Below are positions 2,957 through 14,368 of a DNA stretch of 32,570 nucleotides, piece by piece. The stretch spans positions 1-32,570 of the forward strand of contig JAKQKE010000191.1 of NCBI GenBank assembly GCA_029560805.1, read 5' to 3'. Each line of letters opens with the position of its first letter. Within the stretch, counting starts at the first letter, position 1. The translations under genes were made by a program, and so were the position numbers. The stretch is from Spirochaetota bacterium. GTDB lineage: Bacteria; Spirochaetota; Spirochaetia; Treponematales; UBA12059. The notes below the pieces were generated by a model that did no database searches, was not told the origin of the DNA, and saw nothing but the letters and a program-made list of their open reading frames with translations.

Positions 2957-2985
2957 AGGCTACCATGCGTTGACTGACCAGTCAA
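2957..2985 (-). promoter_or_regulatory. Promoter and TetR-type operator of the GH1-symporter operon
   Basis: The palindrome TTGACTGACCAGTCAA at 2970-2985 has perfect 7-bp arms around a 2-bp centre, the geometry of a TetR-family operator. Read on the minus strand, its first six bases are a near-consensus -35 (TTGACT, 2985-2980). After 17 bp comes a weak -10 (TAGCCT, 2962-2957). The operator thus covers the -35 and half the spacer, as expected for simple repression. It sits in the 75-bp gap between the tetR stop (3000) and the GH1 start (2924). Promoter and operator are inferred from sequence only. Confidence 0.75.
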
Positions 2986-2999
2986 TCATCAGAATGAGG

Positions 3000-3635
3000 C
3001 TATCGTAGCATGGCGACGACGGCGTCGGTCATACGGTCGGGAGCGGCCTCGGCCAGCCCCGTGCCGACGAACAGCTCGAGCTTGGCGCGTTCGAGCCCGC
3101 TGGCGCGGCTCTTCATCAGCTGGGCGGCCAGCGCGTCGAGGAGGTAGGCGGCCGCGCCGTCGTCGATCCCCTGGTCGATCTCGCCGGAAGCCTTGCCACG
3201 GGCGACGACGCGGCGCCATCGCTCGGTCGAGTCGCGCTCGAGCGGCAGGATGGCGTCGGCGAAGCGGGCGTTCTCGACGAGCGATAGGGACAGCCAGAGC
3301 GATATGAGTTCGGGCTCGGCGCTCGCCTCGTCCCAGGCGCTCCTGAAGACGGTGCGGACCGTCGCGGCGAAGCCTGCCCCTTCGTCGTCCGACGCCGCGA
3401 AGCGCTCGGCCTGCAGGCTCATGCCCCGGGCGATGACCGCGCGGATCATATCGTCCTTGGTCGGGAAATAGCTGAACATGGAGCCATGGGAGACGCCGGC
3501 CTCGGCGGCGACGTCCGCCATTCTCGCGCCGCCGATGCCGTCGCGGCCGAGCACGCGCGAGGCGGCCCGGAGGATGCGCTCGCGCTTCTCCGAGGGAATG
3601 TTCTCGAAGGTGGCGGTATGATACCGGATTGCCAT
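3000..3635 (-). CDS. TetR/AcrR-family transcriptional regulator
   Basis: A 211-residue protein with a canonical N-terminal TetR helix-turn-helix, visible as SEKRERILRAASRVLGRDG then MADVAAEAGVSHGSMFSYFPTKDDMIRAVI (about residues 14-63). This is followed by a divergent all-helical ligand-binding domain. The family binds palindromic operators and is released by a small ligand. The first gene downstream on the same strand is the GH1 glycosidase, behind a perfect palindrome, so this protein probably represses that operon. An earlier TTG start is in frame, but the ATG at 3633-3635 gives the usual length. No Shine-Dalgarno precedes the ATG. Instead a -10-like GATACT ends 6 nt upstream, so the message may be leaderless. 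The inducer is unknown; a glycoside or its product is a guess. Confidence 0.92.
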   Translation of the reverse strand: MAIRYHTATFENIPSEKRERILRAASRVLGRDGIGGARMADVAAEAGVSHGSMFSYFPTKDDMIRAVIARGMSLQAERFAASDDEGAGFAATVRTVFRSAWDEASAEPELISLWLSLSLVENARFADAILPLERDSTERWRRVVARGKASGEIDQGIDDGAAAYLLDALAAQLMKSRASGLERAKLELFVGTGLAEAAPDRMTDAVVAMLR

Positions 3636-3641
3636 GGGGCG

Positions 3642-3671
3642 AGTATCGTCGCAAGCGGCCTGAGCGGTCAA
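3642..3671 (-). promoter_or_regulatory. Candidate leaderless promoter of tetR
   Basis: On the minus strand, TTGACC (3671-3666), an 18-bp spacer and GATACT (3647-3642) are followed after 6 nt by the ATG at 3635. Transcription would begin at or next to the start codon. This agrees with the missing ribosome-binding site. Confidence 0.6.
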
Positions 3672-3754: not shown

Positions 3755-4447
3755 ATGGAACGGATGCGAGCGGCCGGGATCGACGGCGGGGCTGTCGAAT
3801 TCAGGGAGGTATGCTGGAGCTGCCGCAGGCCCAAGGCGCTGTGTCTGTGTCCGTCCGAGCCGCCGATGCCTACGCGGACCCGCGTCGTCCTCCTCATGCA
3901 CCCGATGGAATGGAAGCATGAGAAGTGCACGACCGGCAGGCTGACCTGCCTGAACCTACGGAACAGCGAGATCATACCGGGCCTACGCTTCGGGGACGAT
4001 CCACGGTACCGGGCCCTGGTCGACGACCCGGCCAACTTCCCCGTGTTGCTCTACCCCGGCAAGGACGCTTTCGACCTATCCTCGGGCGGCTTCCCCGCGG
4101 CCGAGCTGGGCGACCGCCGCCTGGTCGTGTTCCTGATCGACTCGACCTGGGCCTGCGCCAAGGCCATACTCCGCGAGAGCCCCTGCCTCCGCGCCCTACC
4201 CTGCGTCAAGTTCACGCCCACCGTCCCAAGCCGCTACGTCATTAAACGCCAGCCCGACCCCCTGTGCCTGTCGACGATAGAGGCGACGCACGAGCTGCTC
4301 CTGGCGCTGGAAAACGCCGGGCTCGACGCGTACCCCGACAAGGAGCGCCTGCTGCGGTCGTTCTTCGCGATGCGCGACTACCAGCTCGAGCGCATAGCCG
4401 ACGACCGTAACCCGCGGCGCAAGAAGAAGTGGGACCGCCCTAGCTGA
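3755..4447 (+). CDS. tapT: DTW-domain tRNA-uridine aminocarboxypropyltransferase
   Basis: A 230-residue protein of the DTW (TapT/TuaA/DTWD) family, which transfers the 3-amino-3-carboxypropyl group of S-adenosylmethionine to a tRNA uridine (acp3U). The family signature is the 'D-S/T-W' segment, here DSTWACAKAIL (about residues 128-138). The N-terminus has the Cys-rich motif CWSCRRPKALCLC (about residues 20-32) seen in many members, probably a metal site. A central block containing LLMHPMEWKHEKCTTGRL is also typical. The ATG at 3755 has GAGAGGT upstream and a possible -10 TATAGT at 3725-3730. The last 8 bp overlap the end of the convergent ABC exporter gene. The basic C-terminus (NPRRKKKWDR) would suit RNA contact. 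The symbol is by family membership; the exact modified position is not shown. Confidence 0.87.
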   Translation: MERMRAAGIDGGAVEFREVCWSCRRPKALCLCPSEPPMPTRTRVVLLMHPMEWKHEKCTTGRLTCLNLRNSEIIPGLRFGDDPRYRALVDDPANFPVLLYPGKDAFDLSSGGFPAAELGDRRLVVFLIDSTWACAKAILRESPCLRALPCVKFTPTVPSRYVIKRQPDPLCLSTIEATHELLLALENAGLDAYPDKERLLRSFFAMRDYQLERIADDRNPRRKKKWDRPS

Positions 4448-9480: not shown

Positions 9481-10311
9481 ATGAAGGATCTGAAGCTGAC
9501 CGGAGTCCGGCCCGACGGGGCGAGGACCGTGGTCGAGGTCGGCGGCATACGCATAGGCGACGGCTTCACCGTCATCGCGGGACCATGCGCCGTGGAGTCC
9601 GAGGACCAGCTCCTGCGCACGGCCGTAGCGATCAAGGAAGCGGGAGCGACGATGCTCCGCGGCGGCGCCTTCAAGCCGCGCACCTCGCCGTACGCGTTCC
9701 AGGGACTCGGCCTCAAGGGGCTCAAGATCCTGGACAAGGCGAGGCGCGAGACGGGCCTGCCCATCGTCACCGAGGTGATAGACACCCGCGACGTCAGCTG
9801 GGTCGGCGAATACGCCGACGTGCTCCAGATCGGCGCCAGGAACATGCAGAATTTCTCGCTGCTGCGCGAGGCGGGCAAGTCCGGCCGGCCGATACTCCTC
9901 AAGCGCGGCATGTACTCGACCCTCGAGGAATGGCTTAACTGCGCCGAGTACATCCTGGCCGAGGGCAACCCGGACGTCATCCTCTGCGAACGGGGCATCC
10001 GCAGCTTCGAAACCTATACGCGCAATACCCTCGACCTGTCCATCGTTCCGTCGGTCAAGGCGACGAGCCATCTGCCGATCATAGTCGACCCGTCGCACGG
10101 CACCGGCGTGCTCGGCCTGATCGAACCGATGAGCCTGGCCGCCGTCGCCGCGGGGGCCGACGGGCTCGAGATAGAAGTGCATATCGATCCGCCCACGGCC
10201 CTGAGCGATAAGGCTCAGCAGCTGTCGCCCGAGGCCTTCAAGCGGCTGATGCGCAAGATAGCGACGATGCGGCGGACGATGGACGAGCTGGCCGCGGAGG
10301 ACGGGCGATGA
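9481..10311 (+). CDS. aroF: 3-deoxy-7-phosphoheptulonate synthase (type I-beta, AroF/KDOPS-like)
   Basis: A 276-residue DAHP synthase that condenses phosphoenolpyruvate with erythrose 4-phosphate, the first step of the shikimate pathway. The I-beta signature is clear: IAGPCAVES, then LRGGAFKPRTSPYAFQGLG, IGARNMQNF, LLKRGM and DPSHGTG. No N-terminal ferredoxin-like or chorismate-mutase regulatory domain precedes the barrel, so the allosteric control known for other I-beta enzymes is not visible. The ATG at 9481 is chosen because GGAAGG lies before it; an in-frame start further upstream would add non-conserved residues. It is the first gene of a five-gene operon, and its TGA overlaps the aroB ATG. 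Nineteen Ile codons are used here: 12 ATC, 7 ATA, no ATT. Confidence 0.95.
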   Translation: MKDLKLTGVRPDGARTVVEVGGIRIGDGFTVIAGPCAVESEDQLLRTAVAIKEAGATMLRGGAFKPRTSPYAFQGLGLKGLKILDKARRETGLPIVTEVIDTRDVSWVGEYADVLQIGARNMQNFSLLREAGKSGRPILLKRGMYSTLEEWLNCAEYILAEGNPDVILCERGIRSFETYTRNTLDLSIVPSVKATSHLPIIVDPSHGTGVLGLIEPMSLAAVAAGADGLEIEVHIDPPTALSDKAQQLSPEAFKRLMRKIATMRRTMDELAAEDGR

Positions 10312-11348
10312 CCGCGCCGGAGATACGCTTCGGCCCCGCCGTCGGCCTCGGCTCGCTCGCCGAGCCGGCGACGACGGTCGTCGTCGCGGACGCCCTGACC
10401 TCCGGCCTCATGCCGCCCGGCTTCGACCCCGGGCGCGTCGTGATCGTGGAGCGCGGCGAGTCGGCCAAGAGCCTATCGTCGCTCGAGGCCGTGTACGCGC
10501 GCTTCCTGGAGCTGGGCGTCGAGCGCGACTGGACCGTGGTCGGGCTCGGCGGCGGCAGCGTCTCGGACCTGGCGGGCCTGGCCGCGTCCACCTGGATGCG
10601 CGGCGTCGACTTCGGTTTCGTGCCGACGACGCTGCTCGCGATGGTCGACGCCTCGGTCGGCGGCAAGAACGGCGTCGACTTCCGCGGTTACAAGAACCTG
10701 ATAGGCTGCTTCTCCCAGCCGCGCTTCGTGCTCGTCGACACGAGCCTGCTCGACGGGCTGCCTGACGACGAGCTGGCCCGCGGCTTCGTCGAGGCCATCA
10801 AGCACGGCGTCATCGCAGGCGGCGAGCACTACGCCGCCGTGGGGCGGGCGGTCGACCGACGCGGCCGGATCAGGCGCGGGGAGCTCGGCGAGGTCGTCAG
10901 GCTGTCGGTCGAGCTCAAGTCGGCCTTCGTCGAAGCCGACGCGCTCGAGCTCGGCGAGCGGCGCAAGCTGAACCTCGGACACAGCTTCGGGCACGGCGTC
11001 GAGTCGGTCACCGGGTTGCCCCACGGAGCGGCCGTCGCCGCCGGTCTGGCGACGGCGCTCAGGCTGGCCGTCGAGCTCGGCGGCTCCAGCGACGACGCCG
11101 ACGAGGTCATCGGCCTCCTCGAGCGGCTCGGCCTGCCGACCGGGCTCGAGGCCGCCAGGCGCTCCTCGGTCGAGAGCCGCGACCTGTCGCCGTCGAGCTT
11201 CCGCGAGGCCGTGGCCGAAGCGCTCGGCGCCGATAAGAAGCTGTCGGGCGGCTTGATGCGCTTCGCGCTGCCGCTCGCGATCGGGAACGTGGAGATGCAC
11301 GCCATACCGCTCGAGGAACTCAGGGCGTTCGCCAGGAGGGCGCCGTGA
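10308..11348 (+). CDS. aroB: 3-dehydroquinate synthase
   Basis: A 346-residue NAD- and divalent-metal-dependent enzyme that cyclises DAHP to 3-dehydroquinate, the second shikimate step. Landmarks are the NAD-binding block GLGGGSVSDLAGLAASTWMRG, then VPTTLLAMVDASVGGKNGVDF, KNLIGCFSQP, the metal-binding Glu in ARGFVEAIKHG, and the His cluster in LNLGHSFGHGVE and PHGAAVAAGL. All appear intact. It starts with an ATG inside the aroF stop (ATGA), with GGAGG 7 nt upstream, and overlaps aroC by GTGA. The C-terminal ~120 residues are the usual helical metal-binding domain. Confidence 0.95.
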   Translation: MTAPEIRFGPAVGLGSLAEPATTVVVADALTSGLMPPGFDPGRVVIVERGESAKSLSSLEAVYARFLELGVERDWTVVGLGGGSVSDLAGLAASTWMRGVDFGFVPTTLLAMVDASVGGKNGVDFRGYKNLIGCFSQPRFVLVDTSLLDGLPDDELARGFVEAIKHGVIAGGEHYAAVGRAVDRRGRIRRGELGEVVRLSVELKSAFVEADALELGERRKLNLGHSFGHGVESVTGLPHGAAVAAGLATALRLAVELGGSSDDADEVIGLLERLGLPTGLEAARRSSVESRDLSPSSFREAVAEALGADKKLSGGLMRFALPLAIGNVEMHAIPLEELRAFARRAP

Positions 11349-12355
11349 ACGCGATCGGTACCCTGTTCCGCGTCCAGCTCTTCGGAGAGTCCCACGGGCC
11401 GGCCGTCGGCGTGGTCGTCGACGGGATCCCGGCCGGCCTGTCGCTCGGCCCGGCCGACTTCGAGCCGGACCTGGAGAGGCGTAGGGCCGGCGCGCCCGGC
11501 ACGACGCCACGAGCCGAGCCCGACATCCCGGAGCTGCTGTCCGGCGTCTACCAGGGCAGGACGACCGGCACGCCGCTCTGCGCGATCTTCAGGAACGCCG
11601 ACGCGAGGCCCGCCGACTACGACCGCTTCTCGGACATGCCGAGGCCCGGCCACGCCGACCTGGTCTCGAGGATACGCTACTCGGGCTACGCCGACCCACG
11701 GGGCTCGGGACACTTCTCGGGCAGGCTGACGCTCGCCCTCGTCGCTGCCGGCGTCGTGGCCAAGAAGGCCCTGCCCGGCGTATCGTTCGGCGCGCGCGTC
11801 ATCGAAGCCGACGGCCGGGTCGACATCGACGCCGCGATAGCCGAGGCCGCGGCCGACGGCGACTCGGTCGGCGCCGTCGTCGAGCTACGCGCGTCCGGGC
11901 TACGGGCCGGCCTCGGCGAACCATTCTTCGGCGCGCTGGAGTCGCTGGCCGCGGCGGCCCTGTTCGCGGTGCCCGGCGTACGCGGCGTAGAATTCGGCGA
12001 CGGCTTCGCCGCGGCCCGCATGCGAGGCTCCGAGCATAACGACCCCATCGTCGCCCCGGACGGGGCCATGTCCAAGAACGGCTCAGGCGGCGTCAACGGC
12101 GGCATATCGAACGGCAACGAGCTGGTCGTCCGCGTCGCGATGAAGCCGGCCTCGACCATAGCCAAGCCTCAGCGCACCTGGAACTTCGCTACGGGAGCCA
12201 TGGACGAGTTGTCGGCGCCGGGCAGGCACGACGCCTGTATCGCGCTCCGCGGCGCCGTGGCCCTCGAGGCGGCCCTCGCCGTCGTCCTGGCCGACCTCGA
12301 GCTCCAGGCGCTCGCCCGAGGAGCCTCGCTACCGAACGGAGGAATACCATCATGA
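11345..12355 (+). CDS. aroC: Chorismate synthase
   Basis: A 336-residue enzyme that makes chorismate from EPSP using reduced FMN, the last common step of the pathway. The opening FGESHGPAVGVVVDGIPAG is diagnostic. The FMN/substrate segments RPGHADL, RGSGHFSGRLT, FGDGFAAARMRGSEHND, NGGISNGNELV and GRHDACIALRG follow. It is slightly shorter than typical ~360-residue enzymes. The start is GTG at 11345, overlapping the aroB TGA, with AGGAGG 5 nt before it. The stop overlaps pheA by ATGA. Confidence 0.95.
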   Translation: MNAIGTLFRVQLFGESHGPAVGVVVDGIPAGLSLGPADFEPDLERRRAGAPGTTPRAEPDIPELLSGVYQGRTTGTPLCAIFRNADARPADYDRFSDMPRPGHADLVSRIRYSGYADPRGSGHFSGRLTLALVAAGVVAKKALPGVSFGARVIEADGRVDIDAAIAEAAADGDSVGAVVELRASGLRAGLGEPFFGALESLAAAALFAVPGVRGVEFGDGFAAARMRGSEHNDPIVAPDGAMSKNGSGGVNGGISNGNELVVRVAMKPASTIAKPQRTWNFATGAMDELSAPGRHDACIALRGAVALEAALAVVLADLELQALARGASLPNGGIPS

Positions 12356-13509
12356 CCCTCGAATCGCTCAGGCGGGACATAGACCGCATCGACGCCCGCA
12401 TCCTGTCCCTGCTCGACGAGAGGCTCGAGAAAGGCCTCTTGACGCGCCGCCACAAGAGCGGCTCGCTCGACTCCGGCCGCGAGGCGGAGGTGCTCGGGCG
12501 CGTGTCCGCCCGCTCGCGCTGCCTGGCGGACGAGGCCTTCACCACGGGGCTGTATCGACGCATCATGGACGAGAGCAAGGCCATCCAGGACCGAAGGCTC
12601 TCGCTGATAGGCTTCCAGGGTATGCACGGCGCCTACGGCGAGGCGGCGGCGAGAGCCTGGGCCCCCGAGGCGGCGACCATGCCTTTCGGGGAGTTCTCCC
12701 AGGTCTTCGACGCCGTGCTGGCCGGCGACGTCGACTACGGCATCGTACCGGTCGAGAACACCCTCGGCGGCGTCGTCGGCCAGGTCAACTCGATACTGGT
12801 GACGACCGAGCTGCGCGTCGCCGGCGCCGTCGACATGGCCGTCAGCCACTGCCTGCTGGCGCCGCCCGGGGCCGACCACCGCGAGCTGCGCACGGTCTAC
12901 TCCCACGGCCAGGCCCTGTCGCAGTGCCGGCGCTTCATCGAGCGCAACGGCCTCGAGGGCGTCGACTGGTTCGACACCGCAGGCGCCGCCCGCATGATAG
13001 CCGAGGAACGTCCGAAGGGCGCGGCGGCCATAGCCAGCCGCTTCGCCGCCGAACTCTACGGGCTCGAGATCATCAAGGACGGCATCCAGGACTCGCCGAA
13101 CAATCGCACGCGCTTCTTCGTGCTCGCCAAGGAGGCTCGCCAAGCCACGAACGGACCGGCCGACGGCGACCACGGCAGAGCCGGCGACGACGGCAGAGCC
13201 GGCGACCACGGCAAAGCCGGCGACCACGGCAGAGCCGGCGACGATGGCAGAGCCGGCGACAAGTGCTCGGCCGTCTTCTTCGCCGACGACAAGGCCGGAG
13301 CCCTGTTCGCCGTGCTCGAGGTGTTCGCCGAAGCGGGCATCAACCTGACGCGCATCGAGTCGGTACCGACCGAGCCCGGCGACTACGCCATCTTCATCGA
13401 CTTCGCTGGCTCCGACCGCGACGAAGCGGTGATCAAGGCGCTCGACCGCGCCGGCGGCCTGTCGCGAGGCTTCAGGTTGCTCGGCTGCTACGCCGAGAGG
13501 AGGCTGTAG
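12352..13509 (+). CDS. pheA: Bifunctional chorismate mutase / prephenate dehydratase (P-protein)
   Basis: A 385-residue protein making phenylpyruvate from chorismate. Residues 1-80 are an AroQ-type mutase (LRRDIDRIDARILSLLDERL, RRHKSG). Residues ~83-265 are the dehydratase (GFQGMHGAYGEAAA, VPVENTLGGVV, YSHGQALSQC, and NRTRFFVL with the catalytic TRF). The C-terminal ~305-385 is an ACT domain (KAGALFAVLEVFAEAGINLTRIES). Two oddities are visible. The phenylalanine-binding ESRP motif reads ESVP. Residues 272-301, just before the ACT domain, are five 6-residue repeats (GDHGRA type) coded by an 18-bp tandem repeat. Both may affect feedback inhibition. The ATG follows GGAGG 9 nt away and overlaps aroC. 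Confidence 0.94.
   Translation: MTLESLRRDIDRIDARILSLLDERLEKGLLTRRHKSGSLDSGREAEVLGRVSARSRCLADEAFTTGLYRRIMDESKAIQDRRLSLIGFQGMHGAYGEAAARAWAPEAATMPFGEFSQVFDAVLAGDVDYGIVPVENTLGGVVGQVNSILVTTELRVAGAVDMAVSHCLLAPPGADHRELRTVYSHGQALSQCRRFIERNGLEGVDWFDTAGAARMIAEERPKGAAAIASRFAAELYGLEIIKDGIQDSPNNRTRFFVLAKEARQATNGPADGDHGRAGDDGRAGDHGKAGDHGRAGDDGRAGDKCSAVFFADDKAGALFAVLEVFAEAGINLTRIESVPTEPGDYAIFIDFAGSDRDEAVIKALDRAGGLSRGFRLLGCYAERRL
13165..13260 (+). repeat. 18-bp tandem repeat (5 copies plus 6 bp) inside pheA
   Basis: Units starting GGCGACCACGGC or GGCGACGACGGC lie at 13165, 13183, 13201, 13219 and 13237, with a partial copy (GGCGAC) at 13255. Each codes for G-D-H/D-G-R/K-A. The copies differ by one or two bases, which suggests some age. 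The repeat stays in frame and forms a hydrophilic linker between the catalytic and ACT domains. Confidence 0.93.
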
Positions 13510-13510
13510 C

Positions 13511-14368
13511 GTGCGCGTCGCGATACTCGGCGCCGGCAAGATGGGCGCCTGGCTGATACGTTCCCTCGCGGCCGCCGGCCACGAGCTGGCGGCCTACGAC
13601 CCGTCACCCGGTCGCCTGGGGGCGGCGACCGCCGGCGTCGTCGGCTCGGCCACCGGGAAGCCCGTCGAGGCCGCCGACGACGTCCGCGCCCTGGCGGCCT
13701 TCGGGCCGGAGCTGCTCGTCAACTGCGCGCCGCTCGGCCTGACGACGGAGGCCTTCGACGCCGTGACGCCCCATCTGGACGAGGCCTGCGCGCTGTCCGA
13801 CATAGCCTCGGTCAAGACCGGCCTCGCGTCATGGTACGCCTCGTCGGGCCGGCCCTTCTCGTCGTCCCACCCGATGTTCGGCCCGACCTACGCCGACGGC
13901 TCGAACCTGAGCGAGCAGAGCGCGGTGATCATCGCCGAGTCGAGCGACGACGGCAAAGCCTTCTGGAAGTCGTTCTACGGATCCTTCGGCATCCGGGTCT
14001 TCGAGGAGAGCTTCGACGGGCACGACCGGACGGTCGCCTACTCGCTGGGCACGCCCTTCGCCTCGACGATGGTCTTCGCCGCCTGCATGAAGCGCCTCGA
14101 CGCGCCCGGCACCAACTTCCGCAAGCACCTGGACATCGCGCGCGGCCTACTCGCTGAGGACGACCGCCTGCTCGCCGAGATCATGTTCAACCCGTACACG
14201 ATACGGCGCCTGGAGCTGATCAACTCCCAGCTGGCCTACCTGACCCATATCATCAAGGACCGCGACCACGAGGAGATGGGCAAGTTCCTGGACAAGCTGC
14301 GAGGCAACCTCGGCGAGGCTCCCGACGGCCCGGCCGGGTACGCCGCCGCGCCGCCGACTAGGCCCTGA
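13511..14368 (+). CDS. tyrA: Prephenate dehydrogenase
   Basis: A 285-residue NAD(P)-dependent enzyme that oxidatively decarboxylates prephenate toward tyrosine. The N-terminal Rossmann motif is AILGAGKMGAWLIRSLAAAGH. The family landmarks DIASVKTGL and SSHPMFGPTYA are visible, followed by a helical dimerisation domain (about 160-270). No ACT domain is attached. The start is GTG at 13511, one base after the pheA stop, with GAGGAGG about 8 nt before it. It is the last gene of the plus-strand aro operon and converges on aroA; the two ends overlap by 11 bp. I place it as prephenate rather than arogenate dehydrogenase by family, which the sequence does not prove. Confidence 0.9.
   Translation: MRVAILGAGKMGAWLIRSLAAAGHELAAYDPSPGRLGAATAGVVGSATGKPVEAADDVRALAAFGPELLVNCAPLGLTTEAFDAVTPHLDEACALSDIASVKTGLASWYASSGRPFSSSHPMFGPTYADGSNLSEQSAVIIAESSDDGKAFWKSFYGSFGIRVFEESFDGHDRTVAYSLGTPFASTMVFAACMKRLDAPGTNFRKHLDIARGLLAEDDRLLAEIMFNPYTIRRLELINSQLAYLTHIIKDRDHEEMGKFLDKLRGNLGEAPDGPAGYAAAPPTRP

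Follow-up and report, generated by a model that had tools for sequence, protein, structure and literature searches.

The 16-bp palindrome TTGACTGACCAGTCAA (positions 2970–2985, an exact match to which no strand is assigned; TTGACTGGTCAGTCAA on the minus strand), found between a tetR gene and the gene of a GH1 beta-glucosidase-type enzyme in an uncultured spirochaete lineage, very probably serves as the sole operator for the TetR repressor encoded next to it, which would occlude the −35 element of the GH1 promoter until an inducer releases it. All positions refer to the window, the whole 32,570-nucleotide stretch of DNA that was analysed. A TetR dimer seated on 2970–2985 would cover the −35 element and keep sigma-70 RNA polymerase from using the GH1 promoter, so that neither the GH1 beta-glucosidase nor the GPH symporter encoded by the next gene in the operon is made. 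The inducer, probably a beta-glycoside or its cleavage product, would enter the C-terminal pocket and free the repressor, which itself would be made from its own promoter, where this palindrome is missing. This predicted regulator–operator pair is testable and adds one more TetR protein next to sugar-hydrolysis genes, and such a dedicated single-site repressor, given its distinctive operator, could be put to use as an orthogonal switch. The case is well supported, but this kind of gene control is known and ordinary, and the general view is unchanged.

Gene layout and the GH1 promoter

The three genes of the locus, tetR, GH1 and the GPH symporter, are all located on the minus strand. The gene tetR (3000–3635) encodes a 211-aa TetR-family regulator, the predicted operator binder, with a TetR_N domain (PF00440, E 7e-13) whose score of 48.5 bits exceeds the cut-off of 24. 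The first gene of the predicted regulated unit (1521–2924) encodes the GH1 enzyme (PF00232, E 3e-137; TIGR03356, 521.8 bits, above the cut-off of 478.5) and is preceded by a ribosome-binding-like GAGGAG 5′ of its ATG. NEP and TE(F/N)G are the catalytic motifs of GH1 beta-glucosidases, and NEP and TEFG are present in this enzyme in all four genomes compared below. Since its catalytic domain (Pfam residues 2–450) starts directly at the beginning of the protein, the enzyme is probably cytoplasmic, acting on sugars brought in by the symporter. The latter, a GPH-type sugar symporter (MFS_2; 121–1524; PF13347, E 3e-44; TIGR00792 score under the cut-off), starts with an ATG that overlaps the GH1 stop codon as ATGA.

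A palindrome with 7-bp arms between tetR and GH1 had been reported in a preliminary description, and the 16-mer is indeed located exactly at 2970–2985, 14 bp past the tetR stop codon and 45 bp upstream of the GH1 start. The promoter hexamers given there, TTGACT and TAGCCT spaced by 17 bp, were recovered on the minus strand at 2985–2980 (−35) and 2962–2957 (−10), the interval 2957–2985 originally assigned to the palindrome spanning the region from −35 to −10. On the minus strand TTGACT is the left arm of the palindrome. The −10 hexamer is poor (3/6) and is absent from the output of the sigma-70 consensus scan; it is preceded by TG, as in an extended −10. The arrangement TTGACT-17-TANNCT with this TG is kept in 4/4 genomes, as is the ATG before the −10; both the sequence and this promoter geometry are directly observed.

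Because the palindrome overlaps the −35 hexamer, we infer repression rather than activation by the bound TetR. That the protein binds the palindrome and activates, or does both, is quite unlikely: some TetR-family proteins do activate, structures of the LuxR and HapR type are among the structural matches listed for this regulator, and the GH1 −10 is weak, but a palindrome overlapping the −35 with 17-bp spacing in 4/4 genomes occupies the classic occlusion position, activators normally binding upstream of the −35. The promoter of tetR itself (TTGACC-18-GATACT, 3642–3671, minus strand), found by the scan and conserved in 4/4 genomes, has no operator-like palindrome nearby in the palindrome check, which suggests that tetR is steadily expressed and acts as a simple off-switch; the idea that tetR regulates itself via this palindrome was rejected on this ground.

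In dinucleotide shuffles of the 78-bp segment 2925–3002, such a palindrome (7-bp arms, centre of 0–2 bases) arose in 38 of 3000 cases, so that by its shape alone it is unlikely without being extreme, and it is conservation that carries the case. No other place in the window matches the 16-mer with three or fewer mismatches, its own reverse strand aside; shuffled windows contain a mean of 0.05 matching places. The palindrome can also pair as a 7-bp stem, and for that reason a hairpin in the RNA, for instance one terminating tetR, was considered. It is almost certainly not the explanation, and was rejected, since there is no T run and no terminator was called, the folding z is −0.18, and two of the four genomes break an outer pair without compensation.

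Conservation and occurrence of the palindrome

A search with TetR in 96 genomes, its own included, returned a close orthologue in three other genomes of the same genus (91, 72 and 67% identical), the next best match being at 35%. The GH1 gene follows tetR in 4/4 of these genomes. The GPH symporter is adjacent in three of the four, following in G003 and G007, while in G004 the transporter does not adjoin GH1. The earlier claim that TetR represses both uptake and hydrolysis of a beta-glycoside is partly supported, with uptake under such control in three of the four genomes, and the repression itself would follow from the overlap with the −35.

Across the four genomes, which belong to one genus and two of which are close to each other, the block GATTGACTGGTCAGTC is invariant in 16/16 columns, compared with 9/59 of the other intergenic columns, several of these being −10 positions (Fisher p 2e-10, with columns that are not independent and a block picked after it had been seen). 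This block comprises 14 of the 16 operator bases together with the two bases before the operator on the minus strand, and is the second-longest invariant run in the ~2.2 kb aligned, the longest being 20 bases within tetR. The right arm ends in two variable bases (AA, AT, GA, AA); a perfect 7+7 palindrome is found in two of the four genomes, and the other two keep 6/7 arm pairs. The region of the recognition helix in TetR is nearly invariant.

The simplest objection to an operator is that only the −35 of a promoter is conserved and that the palindrome formed by chance. TTGACT is a good −35, and the shape does arise in the shuffles at the rate given above. However, the eight bases following TTGACT show no variation in 4/4 genomes either, whereas most of the spacer beyond them has diverged, and only 42 of 223 four-fold sites of the genes on either side stay unchanged across the same genomes, so that close kinship does not explain these eight bases. 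Conservation of the promoter alone is highly improbable and was rejected on the evidence of the invariant block and of the four-fold sites. The −35 and the remaining half of the palindrome are conserved to the same degree, and the sequence is therefore better read as an operator than as a promoter alone.

Each of the four genomes has exactly one exact copy of the 14-mer TTGACTGGTCAGTC, at the tetR–GH1 locus. The tetR orthologue (67–91%), the GH1 orthologue and this exact 14-mer are found together in G000, G003, G004 and G007, that is, in four of the eight congeneric genomes; this co-occurrence, like the conservation, is directly observed. The four other congeners, three of them incomplete assemblies (64–87%), have neither a GH1 orthologue (best 47%) nor a close tetR, and contain one 14-mer place each with one mismatch; the reversed control pattern has two places over the eight genomes. 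Among 291 genomes of the order, a perfect palindrome with the centre left free is found in two, both times at the tetR–GH1 locus. The genome-wide search proposed at the outset revealed no other place with fewer than three mismatches to the 16-mer in the 3.3-Mb genome itself, the reverse strand being the same place, and two more places with two mismatches when the centre is left free. At 16 loci among the imperfect matches, neither TetR nor GH1 nor the transporter has a relative within ~1.5 kb. Among the papers listed for the 16-mer and shorter cores, none deals, judging by its title, with bacterial regulation.

The pairing of this TetR with the palindrome is a prediction, and the site could in principle belong to another, global regulator, with tetR nearby by chance. 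Such a regulator would have many sites, yet there is one exact 14-mer per genome, and only in genomes with this tetR and GH1; this alternative is very unlikely and was rejected because the site is nearly absent elsewhere. Conservation, co-occurrence in 4/8 congeners and rarity elsewhere thus strongly support the original proposal that the neighbouring TetR uses the palindrome as its operator at the GH1 promoter.

The regulator and its possible ligand

The AlphaFold2 model of the tetR product (pLDDT 86.8) has an all-helical fold with a C-terminal ligand/dimer domain. The structural matches listed (best 50) have Z scores of 15.6–18.1 over 176–192 residues and are mostly named as TetR-family regulators, with FadR and many others within 2–3 Z units of each other at the top. 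With so many near-equal matches the fold gives no indication of the ligand. None of the matches listed is named GusR, which does not exclude GusR. We can speculate that TetR senses the aglycone freed by GH1, for example an aromatic compound, and not a sugar, since many members of the TetR family have aromatic or hydrophobic ligands; the chance of this is slim, but if true, aglycone sensing would make the switch report which glycoside is being cleaved.

The nearest paralogous TetRs (28–36% identical; 15 loci, L036–L044 and L048–L053) have no like palindrome nearby, and the motif cannot therefore be transferred from a related regulator. The 20 neighbour proteins of these paralogues that were scanned include a solute-binding protein with an ABC permease. 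At four of the loci (L040, L041, L042 and L049), TetR is found near an ORF of 770–795 aa and a class III aminotransferase, the FGGY sugar-kinase region of the ORF having been scanned at L041 and L049 and the aminotransferase at L040 and L042. Of six actinobacterial TetR matches (L086–L091), three (L086–L088) were checked for neighbours like those of BgrT, a group discussed below, and no glycosidase was found among their eight neighbour proteins. No viral relative was found.

Comparison with known systems

The gus/uid operon of E. coli, with its regulator GusR (UidR), has the same order of TetR-family repressor, glycosidase and GPH symporter in one direction, the repressor gene lying directly upstream, and in the MG1655 coordinates the symporter start overlaps the glycosidase stop by four bases, as here. 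The E. coli enzyme is a beta-glucuronidase, which we take to belong to family GH2, whereas the enzyme here belongs to GH1. No match to the palindrome with fewer than five mismatches is present in the uidR–uidA gap, and pairwise blastp of GusR against this TetR gives no alignment at E 10; orthology with GusR was rejected in view of the GH1 enzyme and the missing blastp match. According to a passage of one source, GusR/UidR is induced by a glycoside that binds the repressor, and has two operators, O1 and O2 (PMC9881133), compared with the single operator predicted here. The mode of action may nevertheless be like that of GusR/UidR, repression by occlusion of the −35 being the best-supported reading.

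By function, the closest known system appears to be BgrT, likened here by description only: a passage of PMC4746261 presents predicted TetR-family local regulators in Bifidobacterium and other taxa, which adjoin beta-glucosidases and MFS transporters and have palindromic sites. These predicted sites are 18–22 nt long, versus 16 bp here, and that passage names Actinobacteria, Rhizobiales and Pseudomonadales as lineages, spirochaetes not being among them (PMC4746261). TetR control of a GH1/GPH pair had been called less usual than control by LacI, which holds, yet TetR control of a glycosidase with a transporter is well precedented by GusR/UidR and the predicted BgrT. Among the literature matches listed, no paper on TetR with a beta-glucosidase in spirochaetes was found.

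RutR of E. coli, also of the TetR family, has a box described in part of one source as a ~16-bp palindrome (PMC10891134). It aligns with this TetR in blastp (31% over 77 residues), whereas GusR, the other regulator tried, does not, and its structure matches the TetR model with Z 16.4 over 189 residues at 3.7 Å, a value with which many TetR proteins tie. The rutR–rutA gap contains a 12/16 match to the operator, and 36 of 2000 shuffles are as good. As portrayed in a section of PMC6790063, RutR controls pyrimidine genes, has many sites and senses uracil; there is no sign that it shares a function with this TetR.

Two further features of the surroundings were observed. A gene for a DTW-domain protein (3755–4447) is divergent from tetR, and is beside tetR also in G003 and G004. 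In G007 it is ~2 kb off, the intervening stretch (L047:3720–5774), seen in this genome only, containing a second TetR-like stretch and, by eye, further small genes and leaving the tetR–GH1 pair and the operator intact. Farther along the window, 10308–14368 is an aromatic amino acid gene cluster that includes 3-dehydroquinate synthase, chorismate synthase, chorismate mutase/prephenate dehydratase and prephenate dehydrogenase.
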